Under the pieces are notes generated by a model. That model did not search any database. It saw only the letters and a program-made list of their open reading frames with translations, and had not been told where the DNA came from. From positions 3,078,122 through 3,142,121 of the forward strand of contig NZ_OY780933.1 in assembly GCF_963676065.1 (NCBI RefSeq): a stretch of DNA of 64,000 nucleotides, given 5' to 3'. Positions 32,370 to 35,642 of the stretch are shown here, piece after piece. Each line of letters opens with the position of its first letter. Within the stretch, counting starts at the first letter, position 1. Source of the stretch: Maridesulfovibrio sp. GTDB taxonomy: Bacteria > Desulfobacterota > Desulfovibrionia > Desulfovibrionales > Desulfovibrionaceae. Made by a program: the position numbers and the translations under genes.

Positions 32370-32843
32370 CTACTGACCAAATTCCTCAATAAAACGTTTA
32401 ATCTCCTGACGGGACCTTTCGACATAACCGGGGAATACCGCTTTGCAGGTATCGGTCATTTCCATGGACCAGTCTGTGTAATTTTCAGGCTCCATGCCCA
32501 AGATGCGCATTTCCGGACGTTTTCCAACTGCTCCGGCCATATTTAATGAATCGACCAGATCAATGTCATGCAGCGATAAACGCTGCTTTTCATTATTTAT
32601 GATATCTTTTTCTTCAAGATAATAGACGGTACCGGCATCCTTCCCGCCATGAACGATGTCCAGCACCAGAAGACCGTCGTAGCCTTCCAGAATATGGAAA
32701 ATATCGTGTGTGAATGTACCCCCGTCCACTAAGTGGACAAACTCGGGCCATTCTTCTTTTTTCAGTTCTTCAACAGCATGCACCCCGACGCCCTCATCGC
32801 CAAGGAGAATGTTTCCAATCCCAAGCACCAACAGTTTCTTCAT
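32370..32843 (-). CDS. Hydrogenase maturation protease (HyaD/HybD family)
   Basis: This endopeptidase removes the C-terminal peptide of a nickel hydrogenase large subunit after the metal centre is inserted. The 157-residue protein has the family motif GIGNILLGDEGVGVHAVEEL near the N-terminus, where Glu/Asp residues read nickel, and DGGTFTHDIFHIL further on. It lies 290 bp downstream of hysA in the same direction, across a palindromic repeat element. Its target is most likely the HysA subunit described below, with which it could form a functional unit. Start choice follows a good AAAGGA Shine-Dalgarno. Confidence 0.88.
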   Translation of the reverse strand: MKKLLVLGIGNILLGDEGVGVHAVEELKKEEWPEFVHLVDGGTFTHDIFHILEGYDGLLVLDIVHGGKDAGTVYYLEEKDIINNEKQRLSLHDIDLVDSLNMAGAVGKRPEMRILGMEPENYTDWSMEMTDTCKAVFPGYVERSRQEIKRFIEEFGQ

Positions 32844-32865: not shown

Positions 32866-33060
32866 TCCGGCGGCTGGGGAAGGGGAACTTTTGCAAAAGT
32901 TCCCCTTCCCCAGACCCCATCCCTTCAAAACCTTTTAATTTGCTTCGCGTATAGTGTACTAAAAGAGCCTTCAAATAAAAAAGCAGCAAAGTTCGAATAA
33001 AAGGTTTTGGGATTCTTAAACCCTTTTGCAAAAGGGTTTAAGGCCCCCGGCAGGGTCGTC
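32866..33060. repeat. Compound inverted-repeat element (two nested palindromes)
   Basis: The element lies between hysA and its protease gene. It contains a perfect 40-bp palindrome at 32874-32913 (arm CTGGGGAAGGGGAACTTTTG) and a perfect 28-bp palindrome at 33015-33042 (arm CTTAAACCCTTTTG). Both have the core TTTTGCAAAA. Each is bordered by matching outer pieces in opposite order: CTCCGGCGGC before the first and CCCCCGGCAG after the second; CAAAACCTTTTAATTTGCT after the first and GCAAAGTTCG...AAAGGTTTTG before the second. The whole is a roughly 190-bp imperfect inverted repeat, like a small non-autonomous element or a REP-type composite. A decayed half-copy is at 37348-37403. Confidence 0.85.
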
Positions 33061-33073
33061 GAAGACTAGAAAA

Positions 33074-33110
33074 AAACTCCCGGACACAGGGACCCTGCGA
33101 CCGGGAGTTT
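33074..33110 (-). terminator. Terminator of the hydrogenase structural genes
   Basis: AAACTCCCGG (33074-33083) pairs with CCGGGAGTTT (33101-33110). On the - strand a T run (T6) follows. It is 24 bp after the hysA stop. Confidence 0.85.
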
Positions 33111-33133
33111 ATATTCAGTGAAACGTCGTTACG

Positions 33134-34672
33134 TTAGCAGCCTTCGCCTACGTGAACAACATGTTCTTCACCGGTCTCTGCGTGCAGCACGTGCACGGCA
33201 CAGCCCAGTCACGGGTCGAAGGATCGGATGATCCTTGATATGTCTACCGGGTTTTTCGGATCAGGAACAGGTGTACCAACGAGGGCTTCCTCTATTGTAC
33301 CACGGTTACCTTTATCGTCACGCGGGGTGCTGTTCCAGAGGGTCGCAGGGATCATCTGGTAGTTCGCGGTAACGGAATCCTTGATATCGATGTAATGCAG
33401 CAGGGAACCACGGGGTGCTTCGGTGAGACCGAGCCCCTCAGCGGCTTCAGGAATTTCGCTTTTGACGTAAGTTTCTTCGCCGGGCTTAACTTCCTTGAGC
33501 CATGTATCATGAATTGCGTTTGCAACCATGTATGCTTCTTCTGCGCGTGCAACGTGGCGTCCCATGAGGGAGAATGCCATATCTGCGCCCAGATCGCGGA
33601 ACATCTTGGCTTCAATGCCGAAGAGATCCTTGAGCTGCTTCTGGCCCATGGGGCTGAGCTCGGGGTTCTGGACCCACATACGTGCAAGGGGACCGACTTC
33701 AACAGCATGGCCGTTGTAGCGGGAAGCCTTACAGAAGCTGTAAGCGTCCTTCTTGTGTACATCCGGAATGGTTTTACCTTCACTAGGATGCAGATCAGAA
33801 CACTCATCAGTATACCATGCGTACTTGGTGTATTCTTTAATGAGCTTATGGTCGAACTTCTGGTCTTTGCCGTCAACGTAAACGCCGGGCTTGAGCAGGA
33901 ATTCGGACTCAGCATCATCCATGGGGAATACGCCGTAAGCCATAGCATTTTTGTAACCGCCGCCGATCTTGAACAGATCTTTGTAGACGGAACCAATCAG
34001 ATAAACTGTGGGAACGTAGGTTTCAGCAATGAATTTCTGGACCTGTTTGAAACGGCTTGCGTATTCAACGAGCTTTTCTTTGGTCGGAATTTCGGTTGCG
34101 CCACCAACGACCTGACCGGAAACGTGAGGCATTTTACCACCGAACAGAGCCACCATTTCGTGGCAGATGCGGCGGATTTCAAGTGCCTTAACGTACTGGT
34201 CAACGGCTACTTTATTTGTTTTATCATCAAGGCGCAGGTCAGGATGCTCGAAGCGGGGGACAAAGGGAGCTTTGCCGGGTCCGCGCACGAAGTCCAGAGC
34301 TGCAAGATGGTAAAAATGCAGAATATGTGACTGCAGGTAGTTAGCACCGAAGATGAGGTTTTTAGTTACGCGACCGTTGGTGGTCAGCTTAACGCCAAAA
34401 GCATCATCCAGAGCACGGGTGGAAGCTGTGGAGTGAGCTGTCGGGCAAACGCCGCACAGACGCTGTGTCAGCTGTGCTGCATCGCGGGGATCACGTCCTA
34501 TAAGGATATTCTCGAAACCGCGGTACATACCGCCGGAGAGCCATGCGTCCGATACTTTACCGTCTTTAACTACGACCTCAGCCTTGAGGTGGCCTTCGAT
34601 TCGGGTAACCGGATCAATGGCAATCTTAAGTGTCCCGTCATTACCGGCGGGTGCATGAGATTTTGAAGACAT
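33134..34672 (-). CDS. hysA: [NiFeSe] hydrogenase large subunit, selenocysteine-containing
   Basis: The large subunit carries the Ni-Fe(-Se) active site of a periplasmic uptake hydrogenase. The frame reads to SFDP, then TGA at 33209-33211, then LGCAVHVLHAETGEE to a TAA at 33134-33136. This makes the canonical terminal motif DP-U-LGC-AVH, with selenocysteine (residue 488) in place of the nickel-ligand Cys. The first CxxC is RLCGVCPTAHS (residues 66-76). The full product is 512 residues; processing after the His would remove the last 18. AAAGGAG precedes the ATG. hysB lies 22 bp upstream. Ending the gene at the TGA would lose two of four nickel ligands. Confidence 0.93.
33160..33211 (-). promoter_or_regulatory. 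UGA selenocysteine codon and candidate bacterial SECIS
   Basis: The in-frame TGA is at 33209-33211 (- strand). The 40 bases after it are GC-rich and contain GTGC/GCAC complementary pieces (around GTGCACGTGCTGCAC) that can fold into a stem with a small apical loop, as expected of a bacterial SECIS read by SelB. I have not computed the fold, so the hairpin boundaries are approximate. Confidence 0.6.
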
Positions 34673-34694: not shown

Positions 34695-35642
34695 TTAACC
34701 GGCTTCGTAGAAGGGGGACATTTCATCCGGGAATCCCGGTTCTACACAGCCAATGCATACTGAGTTTTCAACACACCAGTTAACACCGCCGTTCCACTTA
34801 CGCTTGAAGCAGTCGGAATATGCGTTGGGACCTTTACAGCCCAATTCATAACGGCAATTAACGGGATCGGTGAAGATTTCAGCATACTCATCGTTGTCGA
34901 ATTTCTCCAGATATGGGCAATTATCATGGATATTTTCACCATAGAACGGTGTGGGACGGCCATTTTCGTCAAGAATTTTGACAACTTCGGCAAGTCCGCC
35001 AACCAGACCTTTTTCTTCAATGGCGTTAATTGCGACAACGAGGGTACCGACCATCCAGTCAGGATGGGGAGGACAACCCGGAATGTTCACTACGGGAGTC
35101 TTTACACCTTGTTCTGCAAGGAAATTGGTTACAGACATTGAGCCGGTAAGGTTTCCTTCTGCTGCGGGGATACCGCCGTAAGCAGCGCAAGTACCGACAT
35201 TAACAACCACAGCAGCATTTTTAGCCATTTCAAGAGTAGCCTCGGACATGGTGAACTCTTTGTGGTTGCTGTCCGCACCTACGATGCAGAAATGACCGTT
35301 CTCCGCTGTGGGAACGGAACCTTCAACAATAAGAATGTACTTGCCCTTGTTTGTGTCAGCCTGACTCATCATGAAATCCCAGGCTTCGTGGCCTTCGGAA
35401 CCCATAATAGTCGGATGATAATCAAGGGTGATTACATCAAGAAGAACCTCTGCGATAGAGGGATGCACTGAGTTAAGAAGTGATACTGAACATCCGGTGC
35501 AGCCCTGTCCCTGCAGCCAGAAAACATTCGGTACAAACTTTTTCAGCGCATGCACAACGCTGGGGTTGAACATCTGGGAAATCCCAAATCCAGCCACAGT
35601 TCCTGTGCACATTTTCACGAAATCTCGCCTGGTCAAACTCAT
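34695..35642 (-). CDS. hysB: [NiFeSe] hydrogenase small subunit, Tat-exported
   Basis: This subunit holds three Fe-S clusters that carry electrons to a periplasmic cytochrome c3. The 315-residue precursor has a twin-arginine signal (TRRDFVKM, residues 4-11). Proximal cluster residues are in GQGCTGCSVSLLN, with NVGTCAAYGG and IPGCPPHPDW following. Further on are HDNCPYL, LGCKGPNAYSDC and the medial-cluster region VNWCVENSVCIGC. The NWC motif has Cys where [NiFe] enzymes have Pro, which predicts a medial [4Fe-4S] rather than [3Fe-4S] cluster, as in [NiFeSe] enzymes. AAGGAGG precedes the ATG. It co-exports the large subunit. Confidence 0.93.
   Translation of the reverse strand: MSLTRRDFVKMCTGTVAGFGISQMFNPSVVHALKKFVPNVFWLQGQGCTGCSVSLLNSVHPSIAEVLLDVITLDYHPTIMGSEGHEAWDFMMSQADTNKGKYILIVEGSVPTAENGHFCIVGADSNHKEFTMSEATLEMAKNAAVVVNVGTCAAYGGIPAAEGNLTGSMSVTNFLAEQGVKTPVVNIPGCPPHPDWMVGTLVVAINAIEEKGLVGGLAEVVKILDENGRPTPFYGENIHDNCPYLEKFDNDEYAEIFTDPVNCRYELGCKGPNAYSDCFKRKWNGGVNWCVENSVCIGCVEPGFPDEMSPFYEAG

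Follow-up and report, generated by a model that had tools for sequence, protein, structure and literature searches.

An in-frame UGA as a selenocysteine codon in the [NiFeSe] hydrogenase large-subunit gene hysA of a Maridesulfovibrio genome

Introduction

Passages of Tamura et al. (2016; PMC4730141) describe hysA homologues whose annotated frames stopped short at an in-frame opal codon, a codon that is read there as selenocysteine (Sec), with D. salexigens DSM 2638 and D. hydrothermalis DSM 14728 among the species; SECIS elements and selA-D are reported in the same passages for these opal-codon genes. The legend of Fig. 5 of that paper (PMC4730141) gives Desulfovibrio vulgaris as the source of structure 2wpn and Desulfomicrobium baculatum as that of 1cc1, and an entry in PMC1794560 lists a Sec-containing FrhA-type hydrogenase for D. 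vulgaris. The hysA gene considered here lies in a 64,000-nucleotide stretch (hereafter the window) of the genome of Maridesulfovibrio sp., to all appearance a sulfate reducer, and, as far as the passages of PMC4730141 go, it resembles the cases described there in gene, in truncated annotation and in an opal codon read as Sec. Our reading of hysA is correct but concerns a known case, one that those passages (PMC4730141) set out for related bacteria. With a probability of roughly 98%, we conclude that UGA 488 of hysA is read as Sec in the large subunit of a periplasmic [NiFeSe] hydrogenase, by way of SelB and a hairpin close to the UGA.

Results

Mechanical ORF calling stops hysA at 33209 and yields a protein of 487 aa. 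When TGA is translated as U the frame instead runs on as ...RIIRSFDP-U-LGCAVHVLHAETGEEHVVHVGEGC to a total of 512 aa, with 25 codons from TGA to TAA if the TGA is counted (Table 1). A preliminary description of this DNA had named the TGA, the 25 lost codons and the C-terminal motif, all of which translation with TGA as U bore out on the minus strand. The UGA replaces the first Cys of the C-terminal DPCxxCxxH motif (FDP-TGA-LGCAVH), where distant homologues have TGC or TGT, and from knowledge of the family residue 488 is presumably a nickel ligand. HysA has a match to PF00374, and the read-through protein scores 881.4 bits against NF045518 ('NiFeSe hydrogenase large subunit HysA'; cut-off 780). 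Naive calling does leave the gene 25 codons short, as had been stated, but the accompanying statement that it would label the product [NiFe] fails for current family models, because the 487-aa ORF itself matches NF045518 above the cut-off, at 852.7 bits.

Table 1 Features of the hysA locus, in window positions.
Feature	Position	Strand	Basis and remarks
hysA, [NiFeSe] hydrogenase large subunit	33134..34672	-	512 aa with U488; TAA at 33136-33134; translation with TGA as U
In-frame TGA, very probably selenocysteine codon 488	33209..33211	-	first-Cys position of DPCxxCxxH; codon conservation
C-terminal 18-residue tail after His494	33137..33190	-	removal by maturation protease expected from known processing
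SECIS-like hairpin	33170..33209	-	A1 columns 3-42; begins at last TGA base; fold, recodings, synonymous constraint, pair counts
Upper stem-loop of SECIS-like hairpin	33196-33182	-	apical loop CGUGC 33191-33187, 17 nt after TGA
hysB, [NiFeSe] hydrogenase small subunit, with Tat signal and NWC motif	34695..35642	-	NF045520, 557.3 bits (cut-off 470)
hysD-like hydrogenase maturation protease	32370..32843	-	NF045519, 244.2 bits (cut-off 190)
Terminator-like stem and T run directly after hysA	33070..33122	-	stem CUCCCGG...CCGGGAGUUUUUUU

The solved chains nearest to HysA are the [NiFeSe] large subunits 5jsu (784 bits) and 5jsh (779 bits), both of which we take to be from D. vulgaris, and the residue aligned to U488 is printed as C in 5jsu and as X in 5jsh. 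Compared with the [NiFeSe] large subunits of D. vulgaris and Desulfomicrobium baculatum, HysA shows ordinary divergence. Hydrogenase large subunits are known to be processed after the DPxxxCxxH motif. The matches to 5jsu and 5jsh span residues 9-508 and those to 2wpn and 1cc1 reach 494; these two chains end at the residue aligned to 494, which fits removal of the tail after His494.

We then searched 199 genomes of the order (Desulfovibrionales) with NF045518, and 61 had a match above the cut-off. All 61 of these HysA genes carry an in-frame TGA, one in 60 of them and two in G143. At the position of U488 the codon is TGA in 61/61 order genes (the window and L023-L082), which are related rather than independent rows, and TGC or TGT in none. 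Among more distant homologues, all 31 that extend over the site show TGC or TGT; five of these came from the NF045518 search of the order and 26 from a further search, after L088 and L114 had been dropped as not covering the site and L089 and L116 had been taken as repeats of L080 and L062, with whose contigs theirs agree in length.

These comparisons bear on three other explanations of the codon. That the TGA is a true stop, with hysA truncated or decayed and the downstream match a relic, agrees with the mechanical ORF caller, which ends hysA there, but we consider it highly improbable: LGCAVHV, which includes the protease site and the second Cys ligand of nickel, directly follows the TGA in 61/61 order genes; the tail is open for 21-25 codons including the TGA in the 60 rows with a stop in the bases read, its length and sequence varying; a relic would not have the lowest synonymous variation of the gene (see below); and residues beyond the site are present in solved [NiFeSe] chains, among them 2wpn and 1cc1. 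A sequencing or assembly error masking a real TGC or TGT is even less probable, as the identical TGA is present in all 61 order genomes, although isolated TGA oddities do exist, such as the change from TGG to TGA upstream of the site in L034, confined to one genome. Least probable of all is that the UGA is read as some other amino acid, for instance Trp, through general suppression or a changed code: nothing beyond the open frame favours it, homologues carry a Cys there, the genome contains the sel genes, and a changed genetic code was rejected on the finding that TGA terminates 4 of 42 selected window ORFs, in which TGG is used 173 times.

Several features of the frame around the Sec codon vary among these genes. 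Counted from the TGA, the tail is 22 codons long in most order genes and 25 in the window. In the window's genus the 25-codon tail ends in GC (Gly-Cys; window 33137-33148), as it also does at 12 loci of the same genus, and tails elsewhere in the order are of 21-24 codons where read. The HysA of L039 (G128) is 95% identical to that of the window. The second in-frame TGA within one hysA gene (L034:2806) corresponds to TGG in the relatives compared and may reflect error or decay; it was rejected as a common feature, being a TGG-to-TGA change in one genome that is absent from those relatives. Frames that end directly after DPCxxCxxH, with no tail to cut, were seen in L083, L084, L091, L092, L094, L095, L097, L107 and L146, and the in-frame TAA of L083 and L084 is an ordinary stop immediately after the motif.

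The genome, searched as one contig of 4,227,349 bases, contains SelA (547.1 bits), SelB with winged-helix domains (394.5 bits), SelD (336.4 bits), which has an in-frame TGA of its own (KAAGUAAK), and a tRNA-Sec (selC; 82.5 bits, anticodon tca). The check for selA, selB, selC and selD that the preliminary description had proposed thus found all four, and together with TGA in 61 of 61 genes of the order their presence upheld its assignment of the TGA to Sec at the first Cys of a [NiFeSe] hydrogenase. Three genes pass a formate dehydrogenase family cut-off, two with an in-frame TGA and one without, and a shorter formate-dehydrogenase-like gene also has one in-frame TGA; with hysA and SelD this makes five selenoprotein genes, a count that covers the hydrogenase, SelD and formate dehydrogenase families. 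A frameshift was rejected for the formate-dehydrogenase-like matches of L121, which come in pieces and which form a single frame with one TGA. Across the order, a search for SelA gave a match in 59 of the 61 genomes with HysA; the remaining two are 63% and 77% complete, and in a third (82% complete) the SelA match was weak (E 3.6e-6). SelA is present in 180 of the 199 order genomes, and SelA without HysA is therefore common.

A covariance-model search for a SECIS element, also proposed earlier, came back empty: the Rfam SECIS families gave no match at the gathering threshold or with E up to 10, and the hairpin that begins at the UGA was for this reason examined by other means. For comparison we folded the E. 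coli fdhF SECIS, whose sequence we located in fdhF. As in E. coli, the window hairpin lies just after the UGA, is closed by GCA/UGC and has GU in its apical loop. The two differ in the loop, CGUGC in the window versus GGUC in fdhF, and in the bulge, a C five pairs below the loop in the window versus a U three pairs below it in fdhF; on folding, the bulged U of fdhF has no exact counterpart in the window hairpin.

The 48 bases from the TGA fold with a minimum free energy (MFE) of -20.7 kcal/mol, and synonymous recodings of them average -11.25. A bSECIS rule given in an excerpt of PMC13188914 sets a loop of 3-9 nt, an upper stem of 4-16 bp, a G in the first two loop positions, a distance of 16-37 nt from the UGA and an MFE <= -7.5. 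With its loop CGUGC, five uninterrupted pairs, distance of 17 nt and -20.7 kcal/mol, the window hairpin falls within the rule as worded in that excerpt (PMC13188914), as do 35 of 36 Sec sequences versus 6 of 31 Cys sequences. In the recoding test, the 36 distinct Sec sequences had a mean z of -1.84 (31 negative, 19 with p <= 0.05), and the 31 Cys sequences a mean of +0.10 (11 negative, 2 with p <= 0.05); for the 17 Cys sequences that remain coding for at least 14 codons the mean was -0.01. Some loci, such as L023 (z -0.08) and L071 (z +0.49), have a hairpin no stabler than its recodings. Synonymous variation in codons 489-500 is 0.40 of expectation, where the mean for the gene is 0.88; none of the 477 other 12-codon windows, which overlap one another, is as low.

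Pair counts over 46 distinct sequences gave 91.2% of cells paired and 12 cells changed on both sides, neither of which was reached in any of 500 shuffles. The number of pairs with double changes, three, was not beyond the shuffles (116/500), and the structure slid by -3 also gave three; likewise, the covariation score was 0.084, and 0.081 for the structure slid by +3. Lower-stem pairs often fail among the 46 sequences (3-42 in 16, 12-33 in 27, 9-36 in 10), and RNAalifold returned a similar stem with a covariation term of -0.29 out of -12.27 kcal/mol. The clearest case of a pair exchanged as a whole is 18-28, which is mostly G-C, U-A in L029-L033 and C-G in L071; in this exchange the Val codon undergoes a silent change where its partner, a His codon, has become Asn or Asp. 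Of the 61 order Sec genes, 60 retain all five upper-stem pairs, as compared with 1 of 15 and 1 of 31 Cys genes, or 2 of 46 Cys sites; the 46 include at least one repeat, since no branch length separates L095 from L145. All five pairs are likewise retained in the HysA-type Sec genes from elsewhere in the phylum among the matches listed (14 of 14), a count that excludes L150 and L152, where three of five pairs form in the HysA register. Constraint at the RNA level is thus clear for the upper stem-loop and weak for the lower stem, as judged from aligned sequences.

Beside hysA lie a NiFeSe-type small subunit and a maturation protease, both above their family cut-offs. The small subunit, HysB, has a Tat signal (TIGR01409, 24.3 bits; cut-off 16.7) and an NWC motif in the sequence NWCVENSVCIGC; the genome encodes another small subunit of this family, in which the motif reads NWP. 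The motif had been described correctly in hysB, but its use as independent support for selenium does not stand, because NWC or SWC also occurs next to a Cys-type large subunit at 17 loci in all (NWC in L083, L084, L142, L143, L147-L149, L151 and L154-L157; SWC in L091, L092, L095, L145 and L146). A protease homologue is found downstream of hysA on the same strand at 52 of 60 other order loci, and none was found within 970-1470 bases downstream of the Sec hysA genes of L050, L053-L055, L071 and L082. The terminator-like stem derives from below-threshold Rfam alignments and carries no family assignment. The stretch between hysA and the protease gene also holds an inverted repeat with 25-nt arms (window 32869-32918) and a perfect 28-nt palindrome (window 33015-33042), whose 21-nt core has no further match in the window with up to three mismatches allowed.

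To place these genes more broadly we scanned 395 genomes of the phylum, scoring up to three candidates per genome. Among the matches listed, the NF045518 cut-off was passed only by the window's own gene. At least 14 further Sec genes, 12 of them full-length (686-757 bits; L129-L140) and two of them fragments (L160, L161), score below the curated NF045518 cut-off and are HysA-type by our own designation. The listed matches also include at least two Cys paralogues in genomes with a Sec copy (L158, L159) and at least two Sec genes of another clade (L150, L152). SelB was above cut-off in 16 of the 17 genomes checked, namely 16 Sec-bearing genomes outside the order and G155; it was not above cut-off in G308, which is 76% complete.

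We built a first tree with 20 of the 61 order Sec rows and 31 Cys rows, and a second (LG+G4) from which 17 Cys rows, L128, L160 and L161 were removed. In the LG+G4 tree L150 and L152 cluster with the Cys genes L085, L087 and L102, apart from HysA (support 100), and L158 and L159 fall inside the HysA clade with five Sec genes, four from their own family and one (L140) from another (support 75). L150 and L152 (G490 and G432; also L166 and L167) are full-length large subunits that share 34% identity with HysA; the TGA stands at the same site, within HS[YF]DP-U-MACAVHVIEPETNE, and there is a hairpin whose loop begins CGUGA. G381 and G271 each combine a Sec copy that has the hairpin with a Cys paralogue that does not, and Cys paralogues that have lost the hairpin beside a Sec HysA in the genome were noted at L158, L159 and L162:3794-7424. 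The 4.4 kb surrounding the Cys hysA paralogue of G271 gave no small-subunit match. G271, G303 and G381 each have a second SelB-like protein that matches over nearly the full length, in G271 adjoining the Cys paralogue, and G522 has a second SelB match over 1-516; besides G271, second SelB-like proteins with both winged-helix domains were seen in two more genomes of the same family, at L163:3647-5608 and L164:5503-7494.

Discussion

By analogy with known systems, SelD would supply the selenophosphate with which SelA makes Sec-tRNA (selC), and this tRNA would be brought to UGA 488 by SelB, itself bound to the hairpin beginning at that codon. Selenocysteine 488 would then be a nickel ligand in place of the first Cys of DPCxxCxxH, as expected of the family. 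Once the metal is in place, the HysD-type protease would remove the 18 residues that follow His494, and the HysA-HysB complex would be exported through the Tat signal on HysB.

The clade of L150 and L152 is possibly a second independent Sec lineage, and we think it somewhat more probable than not that, within the phylum, periplasmic hydrogenases have acquired and lost their Sec site on more than one occasion. A literature search on the second Sec lineage, the Cys paralogues and the second SelB returned nothing of use, which is no proof that they are unpublished.

For annotation, hysA should be read 25 codons further; the part that is lost contains a nickel ligand and the protease site. More broadly, at least 75 HysA-type Sec sites and 46 Cys sites, among them Sec and Cys paralogues in one genome, reveal the SECIS element by comparison. 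If the second Sec lineage and the Cys paralogues accompanied by a second SelB are indeed what they appear to be, they would let one ask how easily Sec is won and lost, in an enzyme that is of interest for hydrogen production.
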